From positions 1 to 28,002 of IMG/VR virus record IMGVR_UViG_3300043436_002173: DNA of 28,002 nucleotides; one strand, 5' to 3'. A model generated the notes under the pieces. That model was not told where the DNA came from and made no database searches. It worked only from the letters and a program-made list of their open reading frames with translations. The position numbers were made by a program, and so were the translations under genes. Below, in pieces: positions 6,418 through 28,002 of this stretch; the stretch's first letter is position 1; each line of letters starts with the position of its first letter. The DNA comes from a virus.

Positions 6418-6444
6418 TAAAAAAACCCTCCGTTTCCGAAGGGT
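6418..6444 (-). terminator. Strong intrinsic terminator ending the late operon
   Basis: On the minus strand ACCCTTCG pairs with CGGAGGGT around a GAAA tetraloop and is followed by a run of six to seven T. The one G-T wobble is favourable only on this strand. It lies about 55 bases after the last lysis-type gene and just before the next promoter, separating late and early transcription. The stretch 6380-6497 holds nothing else. Confidence 0.9.
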
Positions 6445-11941: not shown

Positions 11942-12309
11942 AAATTCGGTTCAATATAGGTAACATCGTTAGCACTGAAAACAATATCAGCAACTTCGGA
12001 CGCTAAAACTTCGTACAATCCAACTTCCAAAACCCTCAAAATTTCCTCATCTGTTTTGCTTTGCGCTCCTGCATTGCCCTCGTAAATAGTATATAAGCAT
12101 TGACCATCGGGTATATCACCAATAGCAACGTCCCAGCAATCAATACGGTTAGTAAATGCACTAAGATTGGAAGCCTTTTCAAAAGCATAAAAGAAATCTG
12201 TATTTGTCGAAACATGGTGAACGTTTAAATAACACCATAAACCGCTAACCATGTTCTCGGTAGCAGTAAAAAACAATCTGTTAGTGGCGTTTGCATTTAG
12301 TAATTGCAT
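11938..12309 (-). CDS. Structural-region protein, 123 aa, upstream of portal
   Basis: A 123-residue acidic, beta-rich protein (NRLFFTATENMVSGLWCYLNV, then GQCLYTIYEGNAGAQSKTDEE, and VLEVGLYEVL). The phrase 'GQCLYTIYE' followed by a short helix and 'VGLYEV' is familiar from small Bacteroidota phage structural proteins beside tail tube or portal genes. I cannot name a function; a head-tail joining or decoration role fits the place. Its ATG is part of the four-copy upstream motif (12308-12341), so it heads a transcription unit with the portal and neck genes. Confidence 0.65.
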   Translation of the reverse strand: MQLLNANATNRLFFTATENMVSGLWCYLNVHHVSTNTDFFYAFEKASNLSAFTNRIDCWDVAIGDIPDGQCLYTIYEGNAGAQSKTDEEILRVLEVGLYEVLASEVADIVFSANDVTYIEPNL

Positions 12310-12341
12310 ACTTATATAATGGGCAAATTCAAAAATGTAAC
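12308..12341 (-). promoter_or_regulatory. Four-copy module-start motif, copy A (123-aa/portal unit)
   Basis: On the minus strand GTTAC, 13 bases, then CCCATT-AT-ATAAGTAT, with the last AT being the start of the ATG of the 123-aa gene. It follows the terminator at 12346-12373. Copies B, C and D lie at 21270-21302, 25500-25533 and 14537-14570; in the 16-base core only the two bases between CCCATT and ATAAGTAT vary. Confidence 0.7.
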
Positions 12342-12345
12342 GAAT

Positions 12346-12373
12346 AAAAAAAAGGGAGCGATTGCTCGCCCCC
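12346..12373 (-). terminator. Terminator after the tail-tube gene
   Basis: A GC-rich hairpin on the minus strand (GAGC-AATC-GCTC, extended by outer G-C pairs across a two-base bulge) is followed by eight T. It begins 25 bases after the stop of the tail-tube gene. It likely trims or reduces transcription into the portal unit, which has its own upstream motif. Confidence 0.75.
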
Positions 12374-12397
12374 TCTAATTATGGAAAGTAGGTAGGT

Positions 12398-12889
12398 TTA
12401 ATCCAAAGGTACAGTGCCAGTAAATGAAACGACTGGTGACTTTTCCATAGAGGTAAAGGTCAAAGTCATTCCGTTCAAGTCACCCATAGCCGTACCCGTA
12501 GCGGAAGTACCCGTAGTTAGGTACGCTCCGTTTTCCAATCCCATGATCCAAAGAGAACCATTGCGATCTTCGGCAATCACTGCCAATTTCGCCTGAGCCA
12601 ACAACTTCAACTCATTGCGCATTGAAGCAGTCAATTTAGGAAGAACGATTGAAAGTTCTGTTTGGTAGAACGTAGTTCCGTTTTCGATTGAAGAGGTTAC
12701 CGTTTCGGTGAATTGTGCCGTGTTCATTGGCAATTCATAGGTGAAGAATCCACCCGTAGCGGTTGAAATTACACCCGATGTTTCTGCTCCGTAAGCTACG
12801 TCCTCGAAATTATCGATGTAAACTTTTTTTAATCCACCCACGCTGTCTTTACAAGCGAGTGTGTATCCAGCGGTTAATGCGCAAGCCAT
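12398..12889 (-). CDS. Probable major tail tube protein
   Basis: A 163-residue protein beginning MACALTAGYTLACKDSVGGLKK, a start I recall from Bacteroidota phage tail tube or structural proteins, followed by beta-rich segments (YIDNFEDVAYG, GFFTYELPMNTAQFTETV, TTFYQTELSIVLPKLT) and a long helix-containing middle (RNELKLLAQAKLAVIAEDRNG). It ends in a Ser/Thr/Gly-rich beta part. Size and pattern fit a two-sheet tail tube subunit. It is placed right after the capsid gene and bracketed by terminators, as expected for a protein needed in many copies. A capsid decoration protein is the alternative. Confidence 0.65.
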   Translation of the reverse strand: MACALTAGYTLACKDSVGGLKKVYIDNFEDVAYGAETSGVISTATGGFFTYELPMNTAQFTETVTSSIENGTTFYQTELSIVLPKLTASMRNELKLLAQAKLAVIAEDRNGSLWIMGLENGAYLTTGTSATGTAMGDLNGMTLTFTSMEKSPVVSFTGTVPLD

Positions 12890-12912
12890 ATCTTTATTTT
12901 TTTATTTGTTTC

Positions 12913-12943
12913 AAAAAAAAAGGGTGGGCGTTGATACCCACCC
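12913..12943 (-). terminator. Terminator after the major capsid gene
   Basis: GGGTGGG and CCCACCC pair perfectly around an 8-base loop on the minus strand and are followed by nine T. It starts 24 bases after the capsid stop. Partial read-through must supply the tail-tube gene, because no promoter is visible between them. It may also protect the 3' end of an abundant capsid message. Confidence 0.9.
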
Positions 12944-12967
12944 CTTGGTTAATAGTTCAGTTATCGA

Positions 12968-13942
12968 TTAAGATGCAGCCATCATGAAACGACGGGTTTG
13001 ATCAGGGAAGGCGATTTGAACACCTGCCTTGAACTCAACCACGAAACGAACTTCGTCAGCTTCCTTAGCGTAGAAGATTTCGAAACGCTCTTCTTCGTTC
13101 AACAAGTCAGTGCCGAAGATGAAGTGAGCCAAACGACCTGCATACAAATCGTAAGTACCATTCAATCCGTTAACACCGATCAACTTGATGTTAGAACCTG
13201 GCAAAGTCAATTCGTTGTTTTCAACTCCGTTCAAGTAAGAAATGTTGAAGTAGTTTTCAGCAACCAAACCTTGCTTAATAGCAGTGAATACGTCGATACC
13301 GCAGAAAATAACAACATCGTCGTAACCTTTGATGTCGGCAGGAAGGTAAGTTTCAAACGTGTTCAACAATTTGATAGCGTTTGTTGGAGTAGATTGAAGA
13401 GTAGCAAAAGACAAATCGGTTGACCATCCGTAAGCAGAAGCGTTCAAATCGATACAAGCAGTCGTTGGTGCAGCAGTCGCAGCATCAGCGAAAATCTTAG
13501 CGAATCCATCCATTGCACCAGAAGTTACGGTAGAATCAGATTGCCAAACCGCAGTTTCCAAAGATTTTTGGATTGACTTAACTTTCTGCTCAGCGTAAGC
13601 CTGCTCGAATGGGATGGTGGTAGGACGTGAACCCGCAGTCAATTGGGTTTGCATCCAGTACTGCTCCAAACTCTTAGGACAAATAGCTTCATGTACCTTG
13701 GTATGAACCGCAGTTAATGAACGCTGTGTGAAATCGGTGGTGTTGTTTGCGCCATTGAAACCGCAAGTGTTACCATACGAAAAAGCCGTGGTGGTATCCA
13801 TCAAGTTCAAAGCAGAAACATACTTAACACCTACTTGCTTTGTGATCAAAGAAACGGTGCGAGCGTCGAATAACGACTTGGTGATTAGGGGTAGGGTTTG
13901 TTGATTAGTATAAGTACTTAACCCGGCTAAATTGTAACTCAT
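12968..13942 (-). CDS. Major capsid protein (HK97-type fold likely)
   Basis: A 324-residue protein in the place expected for the capsid: after protease and scaffold, before a strong terminator. It begins MSYNLAGLSTYTNQQTLPLITKSLFD, with a helical and loop-rich N-terminus (CGFNGANNTTDF, then CPKSLEQYWMQTQL) and a C-terminal part with capsid-like features: DDVVIFCGIDVFTAIKQGL, LPGSNIKLIGVNGLNGTYDLY, and an ending VEFKAGVQIAFPDQTRRFMM in which a small beta strand pair closes the A-domain. No long N-terminal delta domain is seen, consistent with a separate scaffold-like gene. The name follows from context plus this pattern; no catalytic motif is expected. Confidence 0.85.
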   Translation of the reverse strand: MSYNLAGLSTYTNQQTLPLITKSLFDARTVSLITKQVGVKYVSALNLMDTTTAFSYGNTCGFNGANNTTDFTQRSLTAVHTKVHEAICPKSLEQYWMQTQLTAGSRPTTIPFEQAYAEQKVKSIQKSLETAVWQSDSTVTSGAMDGFAKIFADAATAAPTTACIDLNASAYGWSTDLSFATLQSTPTNAIKLLNTFETYLPADIKGYDDVVIFCGIDVFTAIKQGLVAENYFNISYLNGVENNELTLPGSNIKLIGVNGLNGTYDLYAGRLAHFIFGTDLLNEEERFEIFYAKEADEVRFVVEFKAGVQIAFPDQTRRFMMAAS

Positions 13943-13945
13943 TTT

Positions 13946-14524
13946 TTATTTATTTAATGCGTTTAAAAGATTTTCAAATTTTTTCTCTTGCGAGGTTTTG
14001 GGATTAATGTAGGTAAATGAAGCAGGCTTGCTCACTTCCGCAGTTGGTGCGCTTGCAATCACTTCAACCACGGCAGTCATCGCTTCCGTAGCCTTACCCA
14101 TTCCATCCATGCGAGTCATCAAATCGGCTAACATACCTTCCAATTTGGTGATACGCTCGCTCATTGATTCCATTTCCATTGCGTGGTCTGGCATCGGTTC
14201 AGCCTCAGCCATTTCTTCGCCCGCTTCGATTTCTACTTCGATCGATGGTTCTTCTTCGATAGGCATGATTTCCATAATCTTACCGCCCTCGGTTTTGATT
14301 TTAGCAACGCCAACCAAAACGTGTTCGCCGTCAGGTGCAGGTACTTCGTTACCGTCTCCGTCAATTACCATAACATCAACACCAACTGCGATTTCGCCGT
14401 TAATGCTAACTTGACCGCCACCTTCCAAGTCGTACATTGCGAACGCTTGGGGTGTTGGTTCTACGGGACTTTCGGAAGACATCAAGTAACTCTTAATCTT
14501 TAAAAGTTCAGCTTTAATATCCAT
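13946..14524 (-). CDS. Scaffold-like acidic protein
   Basis: A 192-residue, very acidic protein encoded three bases before the capsid gene. Residues 30-85 form a beta-rich domain with repeated Gly (YDLEGGGQVSINGEIAVGVD, DGDGNEVPAPDGEH, KIMEIMPIEE). Residues 88-115 are Glu/Met-rich, 116-150 (SMSERITKLEGMLADLMTRM) are a short coiled coil, and the tail is basic. Acidic middle, coiled coil and basic C-terminus upstream of the capsid is the usual plan of a scaffold or of the scaffold half of protease-scaffold pairs. Its start lies 13 bases after module-start motif copy D. Confidence 0.7.
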   Translation of the reverse strand: MDIKAELLKIKSYLMSSESPVEPTPQAFAMYDLEGGGQVSINGEIAVGVDVMVIDGDGNEVPAPDGEHVLVGVAKIKTEGGKIMEIMPIEEEPSIEVEIEAGEEMAEAEPMPDHAMEMESMSERITKLEGMLADLMTRMDGMGKATEAMTAVVEVIASAPTAEVSKPASFTYINPKTSQEKKFENLLNALNK

Positions 14525-14536
14525 GTGTAAAAGTTT

Positions 14537-14570
14537 ATACTTATGAAATGGGAACGCCTAAAAAAGTGAC
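14537..14570 (-). promoter_or_regulatory. Four-copy module-start motif, copy D (scaffold/capsid unit)
   Basis: GTCAC, 13 bases, CCCATT-TC-ATAAGTAT on the minus strand. Here the ATG lies 13 bases beyond the motif instead of being fused to it, which argues that the motif is not merely an extended start-codon context. It separates the protease gene from the scaffold and capsid genes. Confidence 0.65.
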
Positions 14571-14578
14571 AGAAAATT

Positions 14579-15160
14579 TTATAGCAACGCCAAAATTTCG
14601 TCAATCAATGTAAGTTCCAAATCGTGTTTGCTCGCTTTGTACGGAGCGTGAATGAAATCACCCTCAACCGAGAATCCTCGGAAGTTACCCGCCTCAACTT
14701 CTTTCCAAGCATCCTCGTTATCTACTTTGTACGAACCAAACCACGTGCCTTCTACGCAGTCCTCAAAGCCTTTGGGAGCGTTGATACCACGGGATGAATC
14801 GGTAATAAAGGACTCGAACATAAACACGCCCTCGATCGGGGTTTTATGTTCCACGTTCACGTTCGTGCTGTACTGGTTCGCCATGAATTTGAGCGCAATC
14901 TTTTCTACCGTTGGTTTGTCGTAGGTTACATAGTACTCGCCCATCTTTTCATCACGTCGGTAGATCAGTTGATTTGGAATCATTAGCGCACCCGTAATAA
15001 TTCGGCGTGCTGAATCAGCTGAAAATTGTTGTCGGTTGTTGAAGGCGTGGAAGTTGCGTTCAATCGCTGGGGTGTTTACGAGTGCTACGTAATCCACTCC
15101 CGTTTCGTCTGTTTCGTTTATCACTAATTGATAAACGGGTAAATCGTTGTAAGTATTCAT
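14579..15160 (-). CDS. XkdF-type prohead serine protease
   Basis: From the ATG at 15160, just after the tape-measure stop, the protein has 193 residues. The sequence follows the XkdF-like phage serine protease family closely: VDYVALVNTPAIERNFHAFN, then RIITGALMIPNQLIYRRDE, YYVTYDKPTVEKIALKF, NVNVEHKTPIEGVFMFESFI (His in VEH is the likely catalytic residue), and GTWFGSYKVDNEDAWKEV, NFRGFSVEGDF (the Ser in GFSVEG is the likely nucleophile). It should cleave scaffold and capsid precursors during head maturation. The length is normal. A longer frame to 15232 would overlap the tape measure and is rejected. Confidence 0.85.
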   Translation of the reverse strand: MNTYNDLPVYQLVINETDETGVDYVALVNTPAIERNFHAFNNRQQFSADSARRIITGALMIPNQLIYRRDEKMGEYYVTYDKPTVEKIALKFMANQYSTNVNVEHKTPIEGVFMFESFITDSSRGINAPKGFEDCVEGTWFGSYKVDNEDAWKEVEAGNFRGFSVEGDFIHAPYKASKHDLELTLIDEILALL

Positions 15161-15161
15161 A

Positions 15162-17222
15162 TTATTTTCCAAGTGTTGCTGTTTGTTGAAGTCTTTTTGA
15201 ACGTTGTTGTTTTGCTGAAATATCCGTTTCAAGTACGTATGTGCGCATGGTTCTTTGTTGCATCAAATTACCTTGCGCATCCAATTGCAGTTGGGTAGAA
15301 TCAAGTCCGCTTGTTTGGGTAGCTTGGTTAGATGGACTTAAATTAGGTGCGTTGCTTGAACTTGAAGACGCTGAACCGCCTTGGTATTGTGATTGCCTAA
15401 TTTTTTGAACGTTCGCCAAACCAGTTGCAATAGCCGAAGCAGCTGCAATATATGGCGCAGCAGGAAATACCGAAGTAATAGGACTTTTTGCAGTTTGAGT
15501 AAACGCCCCTTGCGCCCCTGCAATGGCTTGAATTATAGCCTCCGCAATTTGTACTTTTTTGTTTCTTTCAAAATATTCTTTGCGTATTCTTTCCTGCTCT
15601 TTTTCATTGCCCTTAGCCATTTGTAATTCCTGATTCATTTGGTTTTCACGGAAAGCCAAAATGTTTGAGAATGTTTGTTGACTTGTTCTAACAATAAAAT
15701 CAAATATTTCTTTTCTTTTTTGAGCAGAACTTAATTCCAATTTTTGGATTGCTTCGTTATATTCTTTTTGCGAAATAATGCCACTCAAATAAGACTCTTT
15801 TAATAATTCCTTTTTCTTTTCAAGGCTTAATCGTGTGCTTTCCAAAGAATCATTTAAGTATTTCAAATCAGCATCCAAAGACATTTGACGCTCTTTGTCT
15901 TCAAATTCTCTTTGTTCAGTGGCAGCATCTTTTGCATCTTCTGAGGCCTTCGCTTCCTTATCAGCTTGTTCCTTTTTTAATCTATTGATATTGTCAAGGT
16001 ATTCCTTTTCGCTAATTGTGCCATTTAAAAAATATTCCTTGTTTAAATCAAGCTTTTTATCAAGGCTTAATCTATCACTTGCAAGCGAATCGTCTAGATA
16101 TTTTTTATCAGCGTCTAATGATAACTGCCTTTCTTTATCTTCAAAATCCCTTTGTTCCTTTGCATCCTTTTTTGCTTGTTCTTTTGATTCCTCATTGCGC
16201 TTTTTAACGCCTTTTTGGTAATTGATATCTAACGTTTCACGGTCTTTTACCAAATCACGTGCGCTCTCAACAAGTTCAAACAACTTCTTTTTCTCTTCAT
16301 CGGTTGCAGTTCCCAACGCCATCTTTCTTTTGATAGCGTCCTGTTCTGCATAGTTATTTTTCAAACGGAAGTCAAGCAACTCCTTTTCAAGTTGTAGTAT
16401 TTCTTTGTCGGTTTTACCCTTAGCCTTTGCAAGGTCGATGTTACGTTGCAACTGCTTTTCCACGCTCTTATTATAGTTCGCTACCTTTTCAATCGCCTTC
16501 AAAGATTCCTCGGCATTCTCCTTGGTCTTTGCTGTGCTGGCATCGTCAATTAACCCGAAAGAAATGGTGTGAAGAAAATCACGAACCTTAGCAATGATTC
16601 CATCGAAGGGTTTGAGCAAATTATTTACTACCTTCTTAACGTCCTCAAAGTTTGCAATTAGGTACGTTAATGCACCAATCAATAAACCAATTCCCAAACC
16701 TTTCAAAGCCATTCCAAAACCTTTGGTTGCTTTTGTAGCCACCTCGGTTGAAACCGCTCCCTCCTTTTGAGCCTTGGATAAAAACAACTGTGAGAACGCC
16801 GTTTCCTTTTGGAGGATGTTGGTGATAGCAGTTACCCCTTGAAGCAAAGCCATTGCGCCCTGAGTCTTTTTAATCGCTTGTTCAACGGCTTGGTTCTCGC
16901 TACCAAACAACGCCATCGCACCTTGGGCAGCTGCGAACCCGCCCGCAATTCCTTGTGCTGCCTGAGTGAACGCATCCAATCGAAACGTATCGGAAGACAA
17001 AGCTTTGATCGCTCCCTTGGTGTCGTTGATTTGGTCTTTTACTTCCCCCGCTCTTTTTTGTAATGTTTTAAAATCAGCAGAACCCGCTTTACCAGCTTCC
17101 GCCATTTTATTCAATGCTAACTCAATTTCTCTTAATTCATGTTTTAATGACTTAAAATCTTTTTGAGCGTCATCAGTTTCCGATTTTACTCGGAGTAAAA
17201 TATCCTTAGTAGTATCTGCCAT
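15162..17222 (-). CDS. Tail tape measure protein
   Basis: A 686-residue helical protein that should set tail length and be ejected ahead of DNA. An N-terminal coiled coil (about 1-75), an Ala/Gly-rich stretch (about 86-135), a hydrophobic segment at about 170-191 (GLGIGLLIGALTYLIANF) and very long charged coiled coils (about 230-560) are all typical. The C-terminal part about 555-610 (AEAIIQAIAGAQGAFTQT, PAAPYIAAASAIATGLANVQKI) is characteristic of Bacteroidota tape measures. Two 60-residue segments 80 residues apart are near-duplicates. The length predicts a tail of roughly 100 nm by the usual 0.15 nm per residue rule. The start shares a base with the preceding stop (TAATG). Confidence 0.9.
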   Translation of the reverse strand: MADTTKDILLRVKSETDDAQKDFKSLKHELREIELALNKMAEAGKAGSADFKTLQKRAGEVKDQINDTKGAIKALSSDTFRLDAFTQAAQGIAGGFAAAQGAMALFGSENQAVEQAIKKTQGAMALLQGVTAITNILQKETAFSQLFLSKAQKEGAVSTEVATKATKGFGMALKGLGIGLLIGALTYLIANFEDVKKVVNNLLKPFDGIIAKVRDFLHTISFGLIDDASTAKTKENAEESLKAIEKVANYNKSVEKQLQRNIDLAKAKGKTDKEILQLEKELLDFRLKNNYAEQDAIKRKMALGTATDEEKKKLFELVESARDLVKDRETLDINYQKGVKKRNEESKEQAKKDAKEQRDFEDKERQLSLDADKKYLDDSLASDRLSLDKKLDLNKEYFLNGTISEKEYLDNINRLKKEQADKEAKASEDAKDAATEQREFEDKERQMSLDADLKYLNDSLESTRLSLEKKKELLKESYLSGIISQKEYNEAIQKLELSSAQKRKEIFDFIVRTSQQTFSNILAFRENQMNQELQMAKGNEKEQERIRKEYFERNKKVQIAEAIIQAIAGAQGAFTQTAKSPITSVFPAAPYIAAASAIATGLANVQKIRQSQYQGGSASSSSSNAPNLSPSNQATQTSGLDSTQLQLDAQGNLMQQRTMRTYVLETDISAKQQRSKRLQQTATLGK
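15735..16154 (-). repeat. Internal duplication in the tape measure gene
   Basis: Residues 357-416 and 437-496 of the tape measure (DNA 15975-16154 and 15735-15914) are recognisably the same: QR(D/E)FEDKERQ(L/M)SLDAD, KYL(D/N)DSL, then SLxKK, EY/SYL, ISxKEY. The period is exactly 80 residues. It looks like a tandem duplication of a coiled-coil unit, which would lengthen the tail by one step. Confidence 0.85.
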
Positions 17223-19435
17223 TATTCAGTTATTATTTGAGGTGTTGGTTCATCACTAATACTCGCACCGGTACCGCTCGTAAGTTCAAACACGGTAGGT
17301 ACAAATCCTTCTAAATCTAATACTTTGAGCAACTCAACGGAGGTACTCTCATCGCTGTTCGCATCGTAATCGTTAACCGCCAAAAGGTAAAACAATACGC
17401 CATTAATGTAAATCAGTTTCCGAAAATCCAAGTTAGCAATATCAACGGGCGTTAACTGTAAAAACAACTTGACCTTCTTTGCATCCTTATCGGTGTACAA
17501 CTTCACATAATCCAACCAAAATCGGTTGAATAGGTTGTTGTTGGTGTACCTGAAAATCGCTCCCGTGGTTTCATTCGATTGGTAGTACAATTCCCTTGGA
17601 ATTCCAAAGCATAAATCCTTGGTTGGGTTGTACGGGTTATCCAACGTTCCTGCGTATGGGTAACTGGTATATTCATTACCCTCAAAAACAAACTCGGTAT
17701 CGCTCGGAAATTCGATGTATTCGTGGTAAAGAATGCGAAGATTTGGAGTAACTGGCTTAACATTCAACGCCACATCGCCACCGCTCGCAGTTCCTTTATT
17801 GTCGATGTCGTAATACCGTGCGTAAATCCTCGGTGAAATCTGAAATCCAACCATTACGCTATTGGAAAAACCAACGTCCTCCGATTGCTCACCATTTGAA
17901 AACTCATTCGAGGAAATGTACTTGCGTGATCCGTAGCCTTCGCCATACGCTTGTTGGTAGCGTTTCTCGAAGTAACCGCCCCCGTCTTTGTAAGCAAAGT
18001 TGTACGTCTTTGGATTCATGTAACCGCATGGCACTACTTCGTAACCCTTTTCCACGTCCCAAATGTTTGTCCAATCTAAGGGGTTCGCACTATCGTAAAA
18101 ATCCGCAAATGGTTCAACATACAACTTCTTAGGGTTGTACTTATCGGGCATGATAAACAAGTTAAACATACGCACCAAGTACATTAAGAACTCCGACTGC
18201 TTCACCTTTGGCACGATGGTTTGGTTCATATCCCAATTAAACCCAGGTTGCATCAATGGCGTTCCTGAAAATTGGTTTAACCAAAACGTTCCATCGGTAA
18301 AGAAACGAACGTAAGGGGCGGGAGAAATCGGTGTTGGGCTATCAACTGAAAAATCACACCACACTTCCAAGTAATCAGTATTGACTAATGCTAATTGACC
18401 AACTGCGGAAATCTGTTGTGCGGTTGAACCGCCACCACCAACCCAAGTGTATTGCCCTATTTGAGTATCGGTTGTTCCATTTTTGCGTAAATAGATACGC
18501 ATGGTTTGGTCAAATCCCAAAGAAAGATTGGGTTGAACGTTAACCCTTACTTGAATGTTATAGGTTGCTGAAATGGTTACATTCCAACGATAGGAAGCCT
18601 CATTGTAATTTCCCCCATCGAAGTAAGGAGCAGGGGTGTTTGCGCCTAAGTTCAACTTTTGTATTGTACCATCGGCAATATCTTGAACGCCACCACTTAA
18701 CCCAATGTAATACAAAGCAGGCTGAACCAAGTCGTTTGTTAAGTACGGAACGCCACTAATGCCATATGGTACTATCAACTGCTTGAACCATTGCGAGGTA
18801 AAAAAGTCGCTTTCATACGTGAATCCCGCAAAGGCAAAAATCTTATCGACGTACTTCTTTACCGAAATCGCAGGGTAGAAATCCTCGGTGTTGAAAATGT
18901 CAGCGTAAGGACTTGGCGTGGTAGCACGTTGGAAACCCGCCTGCCCGTAATCGATCGCAGGGTAGTAATAATCGTTCCCCGTACTTCCTACCGAGTTCGT
19001 CCACGAATCCACCACGTTGCTCGCATCCCATTCGTGATTCAGTTCGCTGAAATCTAAATCGGTTAACTCAGCATCACCAAGTTGTTTGAATAGGTTAGCC
19101 GTTTCACCGTACAACCCTAACTCATACGTGCCACTCGTGCCATTATCTTTAACCGCCAACAACTGAGCGATTCCCTCAAATACTTGTACCCCGTTCTGCA
19201 TAACGTAGGCACTGGCACGAACGCTCGGATCGAAGGAAACAATCCATTGATCAAAGCGGTAAATGCTCCCAAAAACTTGGTCGTTGTTTGGAGTCTTAGG
19301 AATTTCAATGGTACGGCTAACCGAACTTTTACGCTCAATGGGGTTTTCGATATCCGTTATCGAATAGGTTAAACGAATATCAATATCGTCGAATAAGTCG
19401 AGGCGATTGCCGTCAATGTACAACTCGGTTATCAT
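17222..19435 (-). CDS. Large tail-tip/baseplate protein, 737 aa
   Basis: A 737-residue beta-rich protein. It begins MITELYIDGNRLDLFDD, continues with a charge-rich segment IENPIERKSSVSRTIEIPKT and many aromatic beta strands, and ends with a short Pro/Thr tail. The opening, IDG-x-x-(L/V)DLFDD-x-I-x-(L/V)-(T/N)YS-I-x-D, and the RTI-IP-T-x-N-x-x-F block are familiar from tail proteins encoded next to the tape measure in Bacteroidota phages and prophages. It probably forms part of the tail tip, together with the 423-aa protein. No enzymatic motif is seen. Start and stop overlap its neighbours (ATGA and TAATG). Confidence 0.7.
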   Translation of the reverse strand: MITELYIDGNRLDLFDDIDIRLTYSITDIENPIERKSSVSRTIEIPKTPNNDQVFGSIYRFDQWIVSFDPSVRASAYVMQNGVQVFEGIAQLLAVKDNGTSGTYELGLYGETANLFKQLGDAELTDLDFSELNHEWDASNVVDSWTNSVGSTGNDYYYPAIDYGQAGFQRATTPSPYADIFNTEDFYPAISVKKYVDKIFAFAGFTYESDFFTSQWFKQLIVPYGISGVPYLTNDLVQPALYYIGLSGGVQDIADGTIQKLNLGANTPAPYFDGGNYNEASYRWNVTISATYNIQVRVNVQPNLSLGFDQTMRIYLRKNGTTDTQIGQYTWVGGGGSTAQQISAVGQLALVNTDYLEVWCDFSVDSPTPISPAPYVRFFTDGTFWLNQFSGTPLMQPGFNWDMNQTIVPKVKQSEFLMYLVRMFNLFIMPDKYNPKKLYVEPFADFYDSANPLDWTNIWDVEKGYEVVPCGYMNPKTYNFAYKDGGGYFEKRYQQAYGEGYGSRKYISSNEFSNGEQSEDVGFSNSVMVGFQISPRIYARYYDIDNKGTASGGDVALNVKPVTPNLRILYHEYIEFPSDTEFVFEGNEYTSYPYAGTLDNPYNPTKDLCFGIPRELYYQSNETTGAIFRYTNNNLFNRFWLDYVKLYTDKDAKKVKLFLQLTPVDIANLDFRKLIYINGVLFYLLAVNDYDANSDESTSVELLKVLDLEGFVPTVFELTSGTGASISDEPTPQIITE

Positions 19436-20703
19436 AGTGGCGTTGCTTCATCAAAGGTGAAACGATACGTTACCGATAGCGTTTTTAATTGGTCAAAATC
19501 CCTCTTCCAAACGTTGTACGAAGTATCGGTAATCAAGATGGGAATAAGTACGTCAATCACTCCCGATTCGCCCATGTAGGAAGAACGCAACCACGTGCGA
19601 GGTGAGCGTACCATTTCAGCCAACCACTCAAACTCCGCATCCGTTAACCAATCACTCGAAACCGTAAACTGCTTATTGAAGTCAATGCTTGCGTTAAATC
19701 GAGAATAGTCGCTACGTGTGTAACTATACGTATCGCCCATGCTTAACAAAGGCTTGGAAGCCTGCACCCGTTCAATCGTTTGCACCTCCCTTTGAGGTTT
19801 ATTGAATGCGTAACTATCTACCCCACCCAATTGATTCTGAAAGTGAATTTCAGTAATTTCAAATCGTTGGCATCCAACATTCAAGTTAACGACGTACTCC
19901 GCACTTTGCAGTTGCGAATCATCGTTTGTCCTGCTCAACGTCAATGAGTAGTAACCATCGTCGAAAGGAAAATCTACGCTTCCGTTATCTGAATCGGAAG
20001 TATGGGAGGATGGAATAAGATACACCTCGTTCGGCATGAATGGAACGGTGATAACGCTATTATCGTTTGGATCGCTCGCAGAGTGGAACGCCTCGTTTTT
20101 GGTAGCGAAGTAAAACTCACGTAAAACAGTACCAGCATTTGAGTAATACCGATACCGCACGAAGTCAATGTTTGGGGATGCTTGGATATTACAAGGCACG
20201 TACAAATAACCGCTTTGCATCCATCCGCCATTTTGCGCAATAGCAATCGAACTCTCGGGGCGGTTGGTTAGTAACAAATGCTCCAAGGCATCGTTTTTAA
20301 TTACGTAATCGTCGTTGTCGTAACTCGGGAAATCCAACGTGTTGATCGCACCGCAATAAACCGTACCCGTAAAGTCGTAGGTGGTTGCACTTGCACCCGT
20401 GTACTCTTCCGAAAATTCAACCGTGTATTCCTTCCACATATCGGGGCATTCAAACCCTCGACCTTCGCTGATGTCGGTGTTAATTCCGATTTGCGTTCTT
20501 AGCACCTCACGAATATTGAAGTACCCTTGATCGTTGTTTGGGTTTGGTGATGTCTTTAAACGCACCAACTGCGTTGCACCGATGAATACATCGGCAACAA
20601 ATTTGAAGTTCGGTTGTGCTACGTTCGTACTGGATAACACGAAGGTTATCGGATTGCCTACCGTAGTAAAGTCCTGCGGTTGTGATTCTATCGTTATTGC
20701 CAT
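19432..20703 (-). CDS. Tail protein (distal-tail-like), 423 aa
   Basis: From the ATG at 20703, one base after the preceding stop, the protein has 423 residues. It starts MAITIESQPQDFTTVGNPIT and is beta-rich throughout, with two regions suggesting jelly-roll-type modules: about 5-130 and about 300-423 (EITEIHFQNQLGGVDSYAF, YSRFNASIDFNKQF, WLTDAEFEWLAEMVRSP). The second region, in which a strand-rich core is followed by WL.....WLAE...SP, I recall from Bacteroidota tail proteins located between gp10-like and tape measure genes. A distal tail or hub-adaptor role is likely, inferred from position. No enzyme motif is visible. Confidence 0.65.
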   Translation of the reverse strand: MAITIESQPQDFTTVGNPITFVLSSTNVAQPNFKFVADVFIGATQLVRLKTSPNPNNDQGYFNIREVLRTQIGINTDISEGRGFECPDMWKEYTVEFSEEYTGASATTYDFTGTVYCGAINTLDFPSYDNDDYVIKNDALEHLLLTNRPESSIAIAQNGGWMQSGYLYVPCNIQASPNIDFVRYRYYSNAGTVLREFYFATKNEAFHSASDPNDNSVITVPFMPNEVYLIPSSHTSDSDNGSVDFPFDDGYYSLTLSRTNDDSQLQSAEYVVNLNVGCQRFEITEIHFQNQLGGVDSYAFNKPQREVQTIERVQASKPLLSMGDTYSYTRSDYSRFNASIDFNKQFTVSSDWLTDAEFEWLAEMVRSPRTWLRSSYMGESGVIDVLIPILITDTSYNVWKRDFDQLKTLSVTYRFTFDEATPL

Positions 20704-20704
20704 A

Positions 20705-21271
20705 TCATTTTGGTAGTAAAACTGCCACTGCTTGACCTGCCATGTAATCAGCCATTTGTTCGGCAAGGTCGTTTAAATTATCTTCTGTTAAATAAGGTTG
20801 CACGAATGGCTTTGCCTTGATGCCATACATAAATACCAACCTTCTGTATTTATCTGCTATCTGATCCAATTTCTTAGCTTCTGAACCCGAAGCAAGTGAT
20901 TTGAATGTTACCCACTTTTTAAACGCTTCTAATGGTGGTAAATGGTTTGTGTATTGGAATGGTGAGTTAGGCGCACCACTCCCACCACGTGCGCCCCTAA
21001 CCCCGTATTCTTGGAACTTCCAATATTTAGGTGCGACGATTTCTACTTGGTAACTTTTGCCAAACCTTTGAACGGGCAACGGCACGATTCCGCTTCTTAG
21101 ATTTCCAGTTGAATATAACGCACGACTACCGTACTTATCCATGTTGGCTTGGAAACCCTTGATTGCCTTATTCGCCCAATCGGTTAAAACCTTTACAGCA
21201 CCCTCAAAATTTGTATCAACTTCGTTAGGATTTAATCCAATAGGGTCAATATCTAATAATGTTTTTGCCAT
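20705..21271 (-). CDS. HK97-gp10-like tail completion protein
   Basis: A 188-residue protein with the features of HK97 gp10-like tail completion or neck proteins: an N-terminal helix (AVKVLTDWANKAIKGFQANM), GNLRSGIVP, then a beta region with YWKFQEYGVRGARGGSG, the conserved aromatic-x-EYG turn of the family, and a C-terminal helical part (KPFVQPYLTED). It normally helps join head and tail. Here it lies between the tail chaperone and the tail-tip genes instead of beside the portal and adaptor. Its ATG is fused to module-start motif copy B. Confidence 0.75.
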   Translation of the reverse strand: MAKTLLDIDPIGLNPNEVDTNFEGAVKVLTDWANKAIKGFQANMDKYGSRALYSTGNLRSGIVPLPVQRFGKSYQVEIVAPKYWKFQEYGVRGARGGSGAPNSPFQYTNHLPPLEAFKKWVTFKSLASGSEAKKLDQIADKYRRLVFMYGIKAKPFVQPYLTEDNLNDLAEQMADYMAGQAVAVLLPK

Positions 21272-21302
21272 ACTTATTAAATGGGCAATTGCAAAATGTT
21301 AC
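21270..21302 (-). promoter_or_regulatory. Four-copy module-start motif, copy B (tail unit)
   Basis: GTAAC, 12 bases, CCCATT-TA-ATAAGTAT on the minus strand, with the ATG of the gp10-like gene formed by the final AT plus G. It fills the whole gap after the frameshifted chaperone gene, whose stop overlaps the GTAAC end. Confidence 0.7.
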
Positions 21303-22062
21303 CTAAGTTTCGATTGCCGTTTTACCTCAAACGCTTCATGCTTGCTTTTCTCCACTTGGTAACTCGCATAATTCAGGAACTCAATCGCTGGCAGTTCAAA
21401 AACCGCATCCCATTTTAACACGTCGTTTCCTGCGAGCCTATCAACTACAACGATCCAACCGTATCTTTCTGTAAATCCCGTGCCGAGGTCAGGTCTTCCA
21501 TCTCCTTCGTCAACTCCTTCAAGTGCTTGTCCAAATAGGTTGGTAAATCGTCGAGTAACCTCAACCAACTGCCCAAAAAAAAAGCAGACAAACCAAGTGC
21601 CTCAACTGCTAACATCTTTTCTTGTACGTCCTTCGCCCGTTTAGCGTGTAACTTCCCATCGTACTTTTTAGCGAACCAACCGAAACGGCACTCACGCAAA
21701 AGCGATGCAACGCAAAGGTGCAAGTTATCAATGCTCTTTTCTTTGTCCTTTGTCCATTCGCCTAACTCAACGTATTGCGCCGTGGTGATTTCATCGAAGA
21801 AACGGGTTACATAATAACGCTTTCCGTTCACCTTAACGAAGTTCTTAAATGGTTTGTAAGGCTCGGTGTTTAACTGCTTTGCAATCGCTTCGTATCGGTT
21901 ACGTAGTTCAATCGGTGTGTAATTATCCACCGCATCGAACCCGTTATTCTCCACAATAGCAACGACGGAGCGCATATACTCCCACCCTTCCAAGTGAGTT
22001 AGATTGCTTAAAAGTTGGTATTGCCTTACCGTTAGTTTCTTCCAAATGTTATTTGATGCCAT
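21299..22062 (-). CDS. Tail assembly chaperone, frameshifted long form (gpGT-type)
   Basis: In siphoviruses a short and a frameshifted long chaperone bind the tape measure during tail assembly. Here the zero frame starts at 22062. A T9 run at 21583-21575 allows slippage to the -1 frame, which is open through the run and continues to 21299, giving about 254 residues (163 plus 91). The -1 extension contains GWIVVVDRLAG, KWDAVFELPAIEFLNYASY and a basic end; this W-D-x-(V/I)-x-x-L...(F/V)LN pattern is typical of the T domain. An independent gene here would have to start at TTG 21568 inside the previous gene, which is less likely. Frameshifting efficiency is unknown. Confidence 0.75.
21445..22062 (-). 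CDS. Tail assembly chaperone, short form (gpG-type)
   Basis: The zero-frame product has 205 residues, overlapping the terminase stop by 14 bases. It is helical, with KKLTVRQYQLLSNLTHLEGWEY at the N-terminus, a basic middle (VKVNGKRYYVTRFFDEI) and a C-terminal helical hairpin (ALGLSAFFLGSWLRLLDDL, then LKELTKEMEDL). The 42 residues after the slip site are replaced in the long form. Position upstream of the tail genes and the overlapping -1 frame support the chaperone role; the G domain itself has no motif I can name with confidence. Confidence 0.7.
   Translation of the reverse strand: MASNNIWKKLTVRQYQLLSNLTHLEGWEYMRSVVAIVENNGFDAVDNYTPIELRNRYEAIAKQLNTEPYKPFKNFVKVNGKRYYVTRFFDEITTAQYVELGEWTKDKEKSIDNLHLCVASLLRECRFGWFAKKYDGKLHAKRAKDVQEKMLAVEALGLSAFFLGSWLRLLDDLPTYLDKHLKELTKEMEDLTSARDLQKDTVGSL
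21574..21583 (-). promoter_or_regulatory. -1 ribosomal frameshift site in the tail chaperone gene
   Basis: The message reads GCU UUU UUU UUG GGC in the zero frame. U UUU UUG (or U UUU UUU) satisfies the X XXY YYZ slip rule, re-pairing in the -1 frame as UUU UUU. The -1 frame then continues GGG CAG UUG without a stop to 21299. No obvious stimulatory pseudoknot was found by eye. Confidence 0.75.
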
Positions 22063-23206
22063 AAATGCCTCTGTTTTTTTCTGCCAATTTATTCAATGCC
22101 AAATACCTCAACGCATCCATCCCGTGGTTGAACGAGTCAATGGGTACGTTGGTAGCGTTCCCGTCTTTTTCCTTCCATTTGTAGGCGTTCAATTCTTTGA
22201 TTAGGTTCGAGCTCCTACTCGTTACACTAAACCTAAAACGTTTCAATATATCAATCCCGTTTAGTATGCTATCTTTCCCTTTATTAGCACCCTCAACCCT
22301 CCAACCCATTCGCCTAAGTTCCTCGATGGACTTCGGCTCTGCGGAATCGGCAATGATTGACACGCTCTTATTTATACCCGATTGGGTAAAGAATTGGCTA
22401 ATATCCTGATTTGTATACCCTTTGTGGTATAAAAGTTCGTCAATGATTAACTCACCATTGTATCGGTATACCATTACGCACGCAGTTGGGTCGTTGGTAA
22501 ATCCAAAGTCTAACCCCATTCCAATCAATTGCGCTTCCGTTGGTATCGTTCCAATCGTTCCCCAATTGCGGTAAATCAACCCTTCGATTTTACCAGTTAC
22601 CCCACGGGCGTACACCTTCCAAAGTTCCTCGTCGTCCTCCCGTAACGCTTCAATCTTTTTGCGAATGATATCGGGAAGGAATGGGTTGTGTCGGTGGTCG
22701 CTAATAATCAACTCCGTTCCCTCTTTCCCTATCAACTTATCGTGAACCCAAAAACGAGCGTTTGGGTTGTAGTCAATGTATACCTTCTTCTTGGTTCGCA
22801 TGGCTAACTCGGAGTAGATTTCAAAGCTTATTCCATTCGCTTCATTCAGAAAGAAGTAATCACGCTTTCCGCTCTTTGCATCCTGGGAATCTTGGTAGCT
22901 TTTGAACTCAATGATTGAACCGTTATGAAACGTAAAGATACGATCGCTCGCATTGTACCCTTTTATCCAACTTTGAATATCAGTAGAACTGGCAACGATT
23001 GACTGCATATCACGGAGCGCACCGCTTTTAAGGTTCGGCACGTCTTGACCAACCACGCTAATCACTTGGTCGGGTTGCTCAATGGCTTTCAAGCAAAGGA
23101 CTTGCAGAATAGAGTAAGTTTTCCCCGATGATGTTCCGCCTTGATTTACAACGACTTCCGCAACTGAATTGTAATTGCGCTCAAAAATTACGGAGGTCTG
23201 AAACAT
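22049..23206 (-). CDS. terL: Large terminase subunit (ATPase and nuclease)
   Basis: The packaging motor of the phage, 385 residues from the ATG at 23206 (a TTG one codon earlier is unnecessary). The Walker A is GGTSSGKT at about residues 23-30, the Walker B YFFLNEAN at about 117-124, with the catalytic Glu. The C-terminal RNase H-like nuclease is seen in GLDFGFTNDPTA (first Asp), SIIADSAEPKSIEEL (second Asp) and DSFNHGMDALRY (third Asp). It belongs to the Terminase_3/6-type group. The length is slightly short but complete. The start overlaps the small terminase stop by one base. Packaging type (cos or headful) cannot be read from this. Confidence 0.95.
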   Translation of the reverse strand: MFQTSVIFERNYNSVAEVVVNQGGTSSGKTYSILQVLCLKAIEQPDQVISVVGQDVPNLKSGALRDMQSIVASSTDIQSWIKGYNASDRIFTFHNGSIIEFKSYQDSQDAKSGKRDYFFLNEANGISFEIYSELAMRTKKKVYIDYNPNARFWVHDKLIGKEGTELIISDHRHNPFLPDIIRKKIEALREDDEELWKVYARGVTGKIEGLIYRNWGTIGTIPTEAQLIGMGLDFGFTNDPTACVMVYRYNGELIIDELLYHKGYTNQDISQFFTQSGINKSVSIIADSAEPKSIEELRRMGWRVEGANKGKDSILNGIDILKRFRFSVTSRSSNLIKELNAYKWKEKDGNATNVPIDSFNHGMDALRYLALNKLAEKNRGIYGIK

Positions 23207-23655
23207 CAATCTAAAATTATTGCATCCTCGCTATCAGCTAACCCAACATCGCTTTTAATCACGCCAACTTTGATTTCCGCTTGTGGCATGGATACCGTAG
23301 TATCAACTGTTTCCTTCGGCTTTCCGTAAACCCTATCGAAGAGAACTTCCATCAAGTGAATTGAACCTCGGCTCATATCACGCTCCATCTTCTTACTTAT
23401 CATTTTCAACCAAAATGGTACATCCTCACGCTCTCCTAAATCCTTCACTTGCTTTTCAGTCATGCAAAGCATTGCCATAATCATATCATTGGCTTGACTC
23501 GATGAAAGGGTTATATCAAACTCTTCCATGAATACCTCTTTGATAACGTTTCTCAACGCCCGTGGTCTTCCATTGCGGTTGATGTTTTCGGGGTGCGCTC
23601 CAAAGCCGTGCTTCTTTGCTACCTCTTTATTTTTGAAATTCTCTCCACGTGGCAT
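23206..23655 (-). CDS. terS: Small terminase subunit-like protein
   Basis: A 149-residue protein immediately upstream of and overlapping the large terminase. The N-terminus, FKNKEVAKKHGFGAHPENINRNGRPRALR, has the NPENINR-x-GRP type of start found in phage DUF5681/terminase-small-like proteins, and a helical middle (TEKQVKDLGEREDVPFWLKMI, SIHLMEVLFDRVYGKPKETVD) ends in the conserved hydrophobic-x-DRVYGKP. These small subunits bind genome ends and regulate the large subunit. The helix-turn-helix is not obvious, so the call rests mainly on the N-terminal and C-terminal motifs and position. The ATG shares a base with the preceding TAA. Confidence 0.8.
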   Translation of the reverse strand: MPRGENFKNKEVAKKHGFGAHPENINRNGRPRALRNVIKEVFMEEFDITLSSSQANDMIMAMLCMTEKQVKDLGEREDVPFWLKMISKKMERDMSRGSIHLMEVLFDRVYGKPKETVDTTVSMPQAEIKVGVIKSDVGLADSEDAIILD

Positions 23656-23843
23656 TATACTTCGATTTTTTCAACGATTGCCTTCAATTTTGTTACGCAC
23701 ATCAACTTCAATTCATAATCAACAGAACCGCCAACACTAACCGCATCGGCAGTGTGCAAAATATCAATCAGCAAACCTGCGATTTCGCTGTACAATTGAA
23801 CCGCCCCAATGGCTTCATCAATTACGTTCGGTTGATCATTCAT
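23655..23843 (-). CDS. Small hypothetical protein, 62 aa
   Basis: The ATG at 23843 overlaps the preceding stop (ATGA) and decides the start over a longer frame. The 62 residues are acidic and helical (NVIDEAIGAVQLYSEIAGLL, then LKLMCVTKLKAIVEKIEV), suggesting a two-helix dimer. It is encoded directly ahead of the terminase genes. No family is recognised; a role in packaging or in capping the early region cannot be decided. Confidence 0.6.
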   Translation of the reverse strand: MNDQPNVIDEAIGAVQLYSEIAGLLIDILHTADAVSVGGSVDYELKLMCVTKLKAIVEKIEV

Positions 23844-24292
23844 AATCCTAACTCCTTTAACTTTGATTCGCTCCAACGTAACCCCGCTAAACCACCCCAA
23901 AGAAGGTACGAAATATAACCGCAATCGGTAGGCGAACCCGTTTCGTAATCCTCTTTCGCACGACTCAAATAGGAGTACATTCGTTTGATGGTTGAAACGC
24001 TTAACGGCTCACCATTTGCCAGTTGTTGCGCTCGCACCTTACCGACCTGAGTGGCACATTTGTTACCCTCTTTTTCATTCAACTCAATTCCCCTCTTTGC
24101 GTTATTGCTAACCGCCTTCGGGTAGTCGTTATAGCTTTCAAACTTTTGGTAACTTTCCTTTCGGTTCAAAGCATTGCACACAGCCAAACGCTGGATGCTA
24201 TCGGGGTACTCCGACTTCATAACCGTGTTGCTCATGCAACGATCCAAGAAATCATTTTTGGATTCGTCTTGTTCTCTTTTTGGTAGTGGCAT
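23840..24292 (-). CDS. Conserved phage protein upstream of terminase, 150 aa
   Basis: A 150-residue protein starting MPLPKREQDESKNDFLDRCMSN, followed by YPDSIQRLAVCNAL and then a module about 55-130: YNDYPKAVSNNAKRGIELNE, GKVRAQQLANGEPLSVSTIK, RMYSYLSRAKEDYETG and CGYISYLLWGG. I know both parts from phage structural and prohead-associated proteins; the 'P-x-A-x-x-NAK-x-x...G-x-x-RA-x-QLANGE-x-(L/I)S-x-x-T(I/V)-x-RM' module recurs widely near heads and proteases. Its biochemical role is not known to me. The start overlaps the preceding gene by 41 bases in another frame; the conserved MPLPK start makes that overlap believable. Confidence 0.75.
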   Translation of the reverse strand: MPLPKREQDESKNDFLDRCMSNTVMKSEYPDSIQRLAVCNALNRKESYQKFESYNDYPKAVSNNAKRGIELNEKEGNKCATQVGKVRAQQLANGEPLSVSTIKRMYSYLSRAKEDYETGSPTDCGYISYLLWGGLAGLRWSESKLKELGL

Positions 24293-24566
24293 CGGTTGTT
24301 TGTTTAATTGGTTCGTGTTGTGCTTTGAAACGTCGGTCTAATTCAGCATCGTACAAACTCATCACTTGACTGAATGCGTTGACCGTACAAGCTTGACAAC
24401 CGCCCGCCCATCGCTTATTCATCACCTCGCTCCATACTTGCCCCATGATAGCTACTTGGTCGGGTACAAGACGCAAAGTCTTTTCGTTCTTGAACTGCAC
24501 CCACTTTGGATACAATGGTTCTAACCGCTTAATCTGTTCGTCGGTTATGTTATTTATCAGTTTCAT
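24252..24566 (-). CDS. Hypothetical protein with CxxC, 104 aa
   Basis: A 104-residue protein. Residues 1-20 (MKLINNITDEQIKRLEPLYP) form an acidic helix. A central helical part contains GGCQACTVNAFSQVMSLYD, with Cys57 and Cys60 in a CxxC arrangement, and the last 20 residues are Lys/Arg/Thr-rich. The pattern W-x-E-V-x-NKRW-x-GGCQAC recalls small zinc or iron-sulfur proteins of Bacteroidota phages, but two cysteines alone need a partner to bind metal. The start overlaps the DUF3310 gene by 17 bases. Confidence 0.65.
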   Translation of the reverse strand: MKLINNITDEQIKRLEPLYPKWVQFKNEKTLRLVPDQVAIMGQVWSEVMNKRWAGGCQACTVNAFSQVMSLYDAELDRRFKAQHEPIKQTTDATTKKRTRRIQK

Positions 24567-24744
24567 ATTTCTTTATTTCACGTCGTAAATAATAAATGGC
24601 TTTGATTAAATCTTCTTTCGGGTTGTCGTGCTTGTAGTTCGCCCGTGCCGTGTACTTAATCACATTGCCGAGGTTGAAGTTCAAATCGAATGCATCGATT
24701 AAATCAATAGGTTGAACCCTTCTTTCGTAATACTCGGGATTCAT
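24550..24744 (-). CDS. DUF3310 family protein
   Basis: A 64-residue protein that fits DUF3310 almost exactly: YYERRVQPIDLIDAFDLNFN, then LGNVIKYTARANYKHDN and KEDLIKAIYYLRREIKKYE. The family is common in phages and small by nature; the conserved core is QPID...LNFNLGNVIKY-x-x-RA...ED-x-x-KA-x-WYL-x-RE. Its biochemical function is not established, although it is often encoded beside nucleotide-metabolism genes. It overlaps both neighbours by a few bases, so it is embedded in the operon. Confidence 0.9.
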   Translation of the reverse strand: MNPEYYERRVQPIDLIDAFDLNFNLGNVIKYTARANYKHDNPKEDLIKAIYYLRREIKKYETDK

Positions 24745-24992
24745 CGGTAAATCCTATCGATTAAGAAGTACGCCAAGATGGAAGCAGTAAACCCCGCACC
24801 AATCGAATAAACGTAGGTTTGGCAAATGGACAAATCTTGTCCAATCAGATAGAACAACGCACCGCTCCAAAACGATAAACAGACAAAGCAGTTGAACGGC
24901 TTGAAACCTACCTTATCCCCGATCCCCGTTAGCTTGGTAATCGTTACCCCTAAACTCGCACCCATTACGGACGCAATAATTAACTGAATCAT
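24741..24992 (-). CDS. Membrane protein with CxxC between helices, 83 aa
   Basis: An 83-residue protein with about three hydrophobic helices: 1-20 (MIQLIIASVMGASLGVTITK), 38-52 (LSFWSGALFYLIGQ) and 60-80 (YVYSIGAGFTASILAYFLID). Between the first two lies KPFNCFVCLSFWSG, where CxxC next to LSFW resembles the F-x-C-x-x-C-x-(S/T)FW signature of the DUF1360 type of small membrane proteins. The function is unknown; a redox or metal site in the membrane is possible. It overlaps the sigma-like gene and DUF3310 (ATGA). It could also take part in lysis, but it is far from the other lysis genes. Confidence 0.7.
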   Translation of the reverse strand: MIQLIIASVMGASLGVTITKLTGIGDKVGFKPFNCFVCLSFWSGALFYLIGQDLSICQTYVYSIGAGFTASILAYFLIDRIYR

Positions 24993-25501
24993 TTTAACTT
25001 TCCTTTTAATTTTTCTTTTACCTTGTTAATCGTAAGTCGCACCGAATTGTAGGGAATGGTTGTGGTGGTACTGATTCTCCTCATGTTCTTACTTTCAACG
25101 TAAACCATGAATAGATTTTTATCGTACCAGTGCAACTCCTCCAAGGCTTCTTGAATCCGCTCGGTGTTGTAGCTTTCCCGTTGGTCTTGCTCATGGTCGT
25201 AAATTTCCGCTACCACTTGCGCACGCTCCCAATCGAAGTCCACACGCACCAACCTATCACGGTACTTCTGATCCCATAAAGAACCCTTCCCAAGGAACAG
25301 CCGATAAATCAAACCGAGGACGTACCAACGATGCCCACCCGAGTGCCACACCTCCCACAACTTCTTATCGCCCTTTTCAAGGAGTGCCAAAAGCATTTCT
25401 TGGTAAAGGTCTTCCCCATCCTCAAACGTACCCCGCACCAAGTCGTAACACGCCTTGCGGTAACTTTGATGTTGGAGTACGTCGTAGATGAGTGGATGCA
25501 T
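24989..25501 (-). CDS. Sigma-factor-like transcription protein
   Basis: A 170-residue protein with the outline of a small sigma-70 relative. Residues about 15-41 (KACYDLVRGTFEDGEDLYQE, then MLLALLE) resemble region 2, where DLYQE corresponds to the D-(L/A)-x-QE helix. Residues 116-165 (IQEALEELHWYDKNLFMVYV, RRISTTTTIPYNSVRLTINK, VKEKLKGKLK) resemble region 4, with ISTTTTIPYNSVRLTINK as the helix-turn-helix. Similar proteins are annotated as sigma-like in Bacteroidota phages. Region 2 lacks a clear promoter-melting set, so it might be an activator rather than a true sigma factor. Its own ATG is fused to module-start motif copy C, so it may control itself and the structural units. Confidence 0.7.
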   Translation of the reverse strand: MHPLIYDVLQHQSYRKACYDLVRGTFEDGEDLYQEMLLALLEKGDKKLWEVWHSGGHRWYVLGLIYRLFLGKGSLWDQKYRDRLVRVDFDWERAQVVAEIYDHEQDQRESYNTERIQEALEELHWYDKNLFMVYVESKNMRRISTTTTIPYNSVRLTINKVKEKLKGKLK

Positions 25502-25533
25502 ACTTATTTAATGGGATTTCTTAAAATGGTAAC
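25500..25533 (-). promoter_or_regulatory. Four-copy module-start motif, copy C (sigma-like gene)
   Basis: GTTAC, 13 bases, CCCATT-AA-ATAAGTAT on the minus strand; the ATG of the sigma-like gene uses the final AT. The upstream half lies inside the end of the SSB-tail gene. The gene closest to a transcription factor carrying the same element as three structural units suggests a shared regulon. Confidence 0.7.
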
Positions 25534-27874: not shown

Positions 27875-27997
27875 TAGTCAGGACAGGACTCGAACCTGTA
27901 ACCACGTCTGGTATAGTTTCACTTACTGCCATTTGGATTGTACATTTCCACAGGATTCAGTTACTTGCTATAGCGTCTACCATTCCGCCACCTGACT
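27875..27997 (-). tRNA. Leucine-type tRNA-like gene with enlarged anticodon arm
   Basis: On the minus strand the outer parts are textbook: acceptor stem AGTCAGG/CCTGACT, D-arm GCGGAATGGTAGACGC of leucine type, a class II variable arm (CCA-GACG-TGG), T-arm ACAGG-TTCGAGT-CCTGT, discriminator A, no encoded CCA. The putative anticodon stem is TATAG/CTATA, but its loop is 51 bases instead of 7. The insertion can form two further short helices (ACTG/CAGT and TGGA/TCCA). No U33 or anticodon can be assigned. Total length is 123 bases against about 85. It may be an intron-bearing tRNA, a decayed tRNA or a tRNA mimic. It crosses the assembly junction; only this copy is complete. Confidence 0.6.
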
Positions 27998-28002
27998 ATG
28001 TT
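27889..28002. repeat. Direct terminal repeat, copy 2 (circular assembly overlap)
   Basis: Identical to bases 1-114. See copy 1. The end of the window therefore joins to base 115, so the unique circle is 27888 bases. Confidence 0.95.

Follow-up and report, generated by a model that had tools for sequence, protein, structure and literature searches.

Salmonella phage 7-11 encodes an extracytoplasmic function (ECF)-type sigma factor, SaPh711_gp47, that reads a small number of strongly conserved bipartite promoters (GTAAtg-16-aCTA) before the late genes, an architecture that has been proven experimentally (PMC8948821). Phage phiEco32 also encodes a sigma factor, gp36, for its middle and late promoters (tAATGTAtA), which consist of a single element, and this protein has no recognisable region 4; promoter positions are conserved between phiEco32 and 7-11 while promoter sequences differ, and the two sigma factors, about 15% similar, are thought to be independent acquisitions (PMC8948821). 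T4, too, has late promoters of its own (TATAAATA, gp55/gp33/gp45) and a sigma-like protein dedicated to them. The T4 late promoters have no -35 box and require a sliding-clamp activator. For phages of Bacteroidota, we found no description of late promoters in the open-access papers that were searched. Here we analyse the genome of a Bacteroidota-type phage, IMG/VR record IMGVR_UViG_3300043436_002173, shown as one strand of 28,002 nt (this whole stretch is called the window below), in which a bipartite motif of the form GTNAC-N12/13-CCCATTNNATAAGTAT stands at the start of four gene modules, and we propose that the motif is, in all likelihood, the promoter of an ECF-like sigma factor encoded by the phage itself.

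Four copies of a bipartite motif

Positions 27889–28002 of the window are an exact 114-bp copy of positions 1–114, which makes it a complete genome of 27,888 bp. With this direct terminal repeat the phage genome is circularly mapping or terminally redundant. Because the repeat marks the window as complete, the count of motif copies is valid genome-wide: CCCATTNNATAAGTAT was matched with zero mismatches at 12308, 14537, 21270 and 25500, on the minus strand in all four cases, and the genome holds no other site with two or fewer mismatches, the next best having three. A preliminary description of this DNA had placed four copies of roughly 33 bases at these positions and had noticed no other good copy, and it was right on both counts.

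The copies differ little in layout. P1 (25500–25533, minus strand) consists of GTTAC at 25529–25533, a 13-nt spacer and the core CCCATTAAATAAGTAT at 25500–25515, and is fused to the ATG of a sigma-factor gene; P2 (21270–21302, minus strand) has a 12-nt spacer and is fused to the start codon of the gp10/neck-like gene that opens the tail module; P3 (14537–14570, minus strand), with a 13-nt spacer, precedes a scaffold-like gene; and P4 (12308–12341, minus strand), again with a 13-nt spacer, is fused to the ATG of a 123-amino-acid gene that precedes the portal gene. At the three fused sites the A and T of the ATG are the final two bases of the motif, as had been remarked before, while at P3 the ATG begins 13 nt beyond the motif end, with 12 nt in between. 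The first box runs into a T-rich stretch, giving the consensus GTNACnTTT. The genes of the recognised modules all read leftward. In 100 dinucleotide shuffles searched for gapped words of the form 6+2+8, the maximum was two copies in 99 shuffles and three in one, and four were never reached; together with the conservation described below, this rules out a chance origin of the motif.

Conservation of the motif in relatives

A TerL-based scan gathered 80 related loci. Relatives whose sigma-like protein is 76–99% identical to that of the window (type A) have the motif at each of the following places that their sequence covers: the sigma gene (P1), the first tail gene after g21445, the scaffold gene and the 123-amino-acid gene. 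Type A contigs that were scanned whole contain the four motifs and little else besides a lookalike, CCCATTTGAnAAATAC, inside g26926 (HPFDKYKYNRFGF); this lacks GTNAC, its recurrence in relatives is explained by the conserved protein, and we set it aside as coding sequence. That the motif would stay at module starts in related phages, a check proposed in the preliminary description, was thus borne out: it occupies the same four starts and does not occur elsewhere. In relatives L138, L141 and L154 the final T of the core varies, and two distant loci (L207 and L239) had no clear motif.

We also scanned a collection of 2.9 million viral contigs for the form of the motif with a 13-nt spacer. Among 100 distinct type A contexts, 87 directly precede the 123-amino-acid gene (30), the scaffold gene (30) or the sigma gene (27); three more are, by their flanking sequence, the same sites cut by contig ends, and 10 are unrelated. 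When distinct contexts are compared, the boxes are essentially invariant and the spacer sequence is variable, with a box-to-box distance that is always 12 nt at the tail site and 13 nt elsewhere. The gap from core to ATG is 0 nt at the sigma and 123-amino-acid genes and 0–1 nt at the tail gene, and at the scaffold site the ATG lies about 10–16 nt past the core (14–16 nt when counted from ATAAGT). A fixed spacing between boxes around a variable spacer sequence supports reading the motif as a promoter. As with promoters of the 7-11 and phiEco32 kind, the copies are few, highly conserved and placed upstream of structural-gene units. P2 is kept even though the gene downstream varies among relatives: the first tail gene (20705–21271 in the window) begins MAKTLLD.. 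in the window and MAFIEF.. in most relatives (L139, L133 and others), and the motif is unchanged. Two diverged versions of a gene behind one promoter would indicate replacement of the gene just downstream of it.

Sigma factor types and promoter types

The gene at P1 (24989–25501, minus strand) encodes a predicted 170-amino-acid ECF-like sigma factor, which we propose as the reader of P1–P4. The protein matches PHROG 1740, 'RNA polymerase sigma factor' (E=1.4e-6), as do 12 of the 14 members of the sigma set, and all 14 match TIGR02937 (sigma70-ECF), the best at 5.6e-8; the homology to ECF-like sigma factors covers regions 2 and 4, though it lies under the curated cut-off. Its AlphaFold2 model, of moderate confidence (predicted local distance difference test score 71.8), is mostly helical with a C-terminal helix-turn-helix (HTH). 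Sequence searches of the PDB gave no significant match, and tblastn of the sigma against INPHARED gave no match. The phage record whose TerL is nearest (L202, from human faeces, 53%) is unannotated, and no sigma gene could be recognised in it. Contigs of Bacteroidota genomes (L242–L254) encode distant ECF-like relatives of the phage sigma, at 24–28% identity, as possible gene sources.

Relatives with other sigma factors have other motifs at the same places. Type B loci (L127, L128, L131, L135, L136, L150, L157, L162, L173, L174 and the L170 contig through L230) have a TerL 85–95% identical to the window's and a sigma that is only about 36% identical. None of them contains the type A motif; their tail, scaffold and 123-amino-acid starts have GTAAC, GTCAC or GTTAC, then 12–13 nt, then GTAATNCTATNGTT, so that the promoter form at module starts is GTNAC-N12/13-GTAATNCTATNG. 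Type C (L186, L203–L206) has yet another sigma, which in a single-protein scan matched itself only, together with TGCATTKG cores at the same module starts and a -35 region that ends in AAT, not AC. In type D (L209, a whole contig), TGCATTNNATAWTT cores, likewise of the TGCATT type, stand at the starts of the tail, scaffold and 123-amino-acid genes. An extra core copy is found not at the sigma gene but before the phosphoesterase gene (upstream of 1147 in L209), which precedes the sigma gene by two genes. The sigma genes of types B and C have no promoter copy of their own. A lookalike of the B core, GTAATACTATCATT, lies on the opposite strand near the start of g24741 in B genomes; being inverted and without partners, it was taken as coincidence.

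To compare sigma and promoter types we tallied by hand the contigs that show both the sigma and another unit's promoter, several of which are near-identical. The two were matched in 21 A, 8 B, 2 C and 1 D contigs and mismatched in 0 of 32. These data suggest that the sigma and the late promoters very probably switch together as matched pairs. The preliminary description had listed the sigma-like gene among the targets of the motif; this stands and can be extended, because with sigma type and motif type switching together the sigma is likely the reader of the motif as well.

The alignments also bear on which region of the sigma would read which box. Between types A and B the predicted recognition helix (IPYNSVRxTI) is 75% identical and regions 2.3/2.4 are 26% identical; their promoters have the GTNAC -35 box in common, and the core is replaced. 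Between types A and C the helix is 25–33% identical and regions 2.3/2.4 are 54% identical; here the -35 box is altered, and the CATT of the core is kept. The G paired with the C of the -35 box is contacted by R171 in E. coli sigmaE and by K170 in B. subtilis SigW (PMC6713349). The residue that appears to align with these is an R in types A and B (R155) and in type D, and an S in type C. The C of GTNAC does not vary in A and B, occurs at half of the D sites and is missing from the boxes proposed for type C.

Gene layout and early promoters

The Bacteroidota housekeeping promoter (-33 TTTG / -7 TAnnTTTG; PMC6847099, PMC9723704) is present at the early genes of this phage and absent from the four module starts: the sigma-A pattern of TTTG and TAnnTTTG about 19–21 apart was found at two sites, both at early genes, and the preliminary description was correct in calling the motif unlike it, since both boxes differ. 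The first of these host-type promoters (6349–6379, minus strand; TTTG-N19-TATCTTTG) lies at the start of the predicted early region, and the second (5021–5051, minus strand) lies upstream of a gene starting METIKN. They are near-identical over 31 bp (TTTGCANAATTANNTTTNNNTTGTATCTTTG); a bare TTTG-N-TAnnTTTG is not rare by chance, but the extended identity of the two copies is. As a control for the switch at the late promoters, the early host-type promoters recur with little change in A as well as B contigs and do not switch, as expected if only phage-sigma promoters switch.

A strong intrinsic terminator (12351–12376, minus strand; 11 pairs, T-rich tail) ends just upstream of P4, a position that supports the promoter reading, and terminator-like hairpins were seen by eye at the corresponding place in types B, C and D. 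A further intrinsic terminator (12919–12946, minus strand) separates the capsid gene from the 163-amino-acid gene, and a terminator-like hairpin identified by eye (6419–6443, minus strand; CCCTTC-GGAAAC-GGAGGG then T7) lies past the end of the late unit and ahead of the first host-type promoter. The early region also encodes a possible second regulator, a 117-amino-acid protein (4048–4401, minus strand) whose Pfam match to an HTH of the sigma region 4 kind is weak and under the cut-off (E=1.4e-3). We considered TTAACATCATCGTTAA, a palindromic-looking sequence with three copies at 1895–1934, as an operator and rejected it, as these are three tandem 12-bp coding repeats that encode DDVNDDVNDDV inside an open reading frame at 1435–2274.

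Alternative explanations

The motif could instead be an operator at which a separate phage repressor or activator binds near promoters read by the host sigma. Copies that are few, highly conserved and at unit starts would suit an operator too, and the small HTH protein at 4048–4401, with its resemblance to sigma region 4, is encoded by the phage. However, the motif is asymmetric and two-part, without a dyad; host-type TTTG/TAnnTTTG is found at the early genes and not at the four sites; and motif type tracks sigma type, the half of the motif that is kept corresponding to the half of the sigma that is kept. We regard an operator as very improbable.

The co-variation might also reflect common descent, if A and B were old diverged lineages in which promoters and the genes linked to them had drifted in parallel, with no functional match between them. 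In favour of such hitch-hiking, the contigs are related, and capsid and g23840 segregate with type. We built gene trees for the neighbours TerL, phosphoesterase, the tail genes g19432 and g17222, capsid and g23840, and counted A/B changes on each: one each for capsid and g23840, and 3–4 for TerL, phosphoesterase, g19432 and g17222, rising to 6–7 in a fuller phosphoesterase set. The latter four genes, which flank the sites or lie between them, thus change background repeatedly with the match intact, and therefore these genes recombine between backgrounds while the sigma-promoter match holds. Moreover, drift would not keep the core identical across 3–4 sites per type yet replace it between types, and we consider this explanation very improbable.

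Scarcely credible, finally, is a translation-initiation element (Kozak-like or an enhancer) beside the start codon of highly expressed genes: flavobacteria do use Kozak-like rather than Shine-Dalgarno signals (PMC6847099), the ATG is fused at three sites and type A has A at -3 and -6, but A at -3 is not kept in types B and C, the scaffold motif lies at least 12 nt from its ATG with box-to-box spacing unchanged, and such an element gives no reason for switching with the sigma gene or for sitting at unit starts behind a terminator. The operator or translation enhancer that the preliminary description had kept as its alternative is accordingly disfavoured by the asymmetry of the motif, the sigma co-variation and the distance at the scaffold site.

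Predicted leaderless messages

At P1, P2 and P4 the ATG begins 32–33 nt from the first G of the motif. In phage 7-11, transcription starts 6–9 nt past GTAAtg-16-aCTA, about 32–35 nt from the first G (PMC8948821). The ATG geometry at the tail and 123-amino-acid starts is common to types A, B, C and D, and the ATG is taken as the real start because the N termini of the proteins (MHPL, MQLL/MQIL) agree across all types. Transcription from well upstream would start inside the core, and from well downstream would lose the ATG. This geometry leans towards exact or near-exact leaderlessness of the P1, P2 and P4 messages. The same suggestion in the preliminary description is now better argued, with the geometry kept across four promoter types, and is plausible. 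In flavobacteria only a minority of mRNAs lack a leader (5.5% in F. psychrophilum; PMC9723704), so that leaderless late messages, if true, would set the phage apart from its host. The two early promoters of host type, in contrast, permit ordinary leaders (about 33 nt at the first).

Discussion

We propose that host RNA polymerase with its housekeeping sigma would transcribe the early genes from 6379 and 5051. The early unit would open near the hairpin at about 6430 and the promoter at 6379, pass position 1, continue round the circular map and end in the sigma gene, thereby supplying some phage sigma. This sigma would join the host core polymerase, with region 4 reading GTNAC as the -35 box and region 2 reading the CCCATTNNATAAGT core as the -10 region. 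P1 would then drive the sigma's own gene and the terminase genes in positive feedback, P2 the tail genes, P3 the scaffold and capsid genes, and P4, right after the terminator, the 123-amino-acid and portal genes. The gene order suggests that the host sigma acts first and that the phage sigma subsequently activates its own gene along with all the late units. Together, positional conservation and sigma co-variation support what the preliminary description had proposed, a phage-specific late promoter at module starts.

Several points weigh against this proposal. Firstly, as regards the sigma assignment, the window's protein matches TIGR02937 at E=9.7e-6 (residues 14–169), below the NCBIfam curated cut-off, Pfam gives a weak region 4 match only, and Foldseek with the predicted structure returned no match at E <= 0.001, the top matches being mostly ECF sigma chains. 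Secondly, the distance from GTNAC to the core is short for a classical -35/-10 arrangement unless the -10 contacts span the middle of the core. Thirdly, the evidence for types C and D comes from few contigs and is thin, the -35 box of type C was aligned after the fact, and the contigs are metagenomic and related to one another; independent pairs differing in sigma on well-supported branches all agree, but at 1–3 in each tree they are too few for a sign test to reach significance. Fourthly, the B and C sigma genes lack a copy of their own and in type D it lies two genes upstream, so that sigma feedback is not universal and would be optional. Lastly, we infer both the transcript 5' ends and sigma binding from sequence.

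A bolder version of the proposal would have relatives swap the sigma and all of its dispersed promoters as a lock-and-key set, each half with its own, such that siblings' late genes are not cross-driven (orthogonality under selection) and late messages are leaderless by design; we hold this to be possible but doubtful. Natural covariation of this kind can tie DNA bases to the residues in sigma regions 2 and 4 that set specificity, and the analysis offers a concrete prediction for four sigma/promoter types. The promoters with their sigma factors are also candidates for orthogonal control of expression in Bacteroidota, in which promoters from E. coli do not work.

Among known systems, the T4 type does not fit: the core differs from TATAAATA, and the invariant GTNAC box contrasts with the missing -35 element. 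Like phiEco32, the present phages encode their own sigma, and the promoter turnover between phiEco32 and 7-11 is of the same kind as that among the types described here; unlike the sigma factors of those two phages, the sigma types here are homologous. Phage 7-11 is the closest parallel, although it belongs to another phage family and infects another host phylum. The window's sigma is detectably related to gp47 (score 72, against a mean of 33 and a standard deviation of 6 for shuffles). The 7-11 consensus GTAAtg-16-aCTA itself is not reproduced: the cores of types A (CCCATTNNATAAGT) and D differ, while type B promoters come near it in sequence and spacing (GTAACA-16-TCTA or GTNACT-17-ACTA), close but not identical. 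Unlike in 7-11, the motifs are fused to start codons, function is predicted from sequence, and four sigma/promoter types occur among relatives, A and B sigma types sitting beside near-identical terminases. That more sigma/promoter pairs, or hybrids, would come to light was predicted in the 7-11 study (PMC8948821), and the present lineage would supply such pairs at much closer range, with A and B terminases up to 95% identical.

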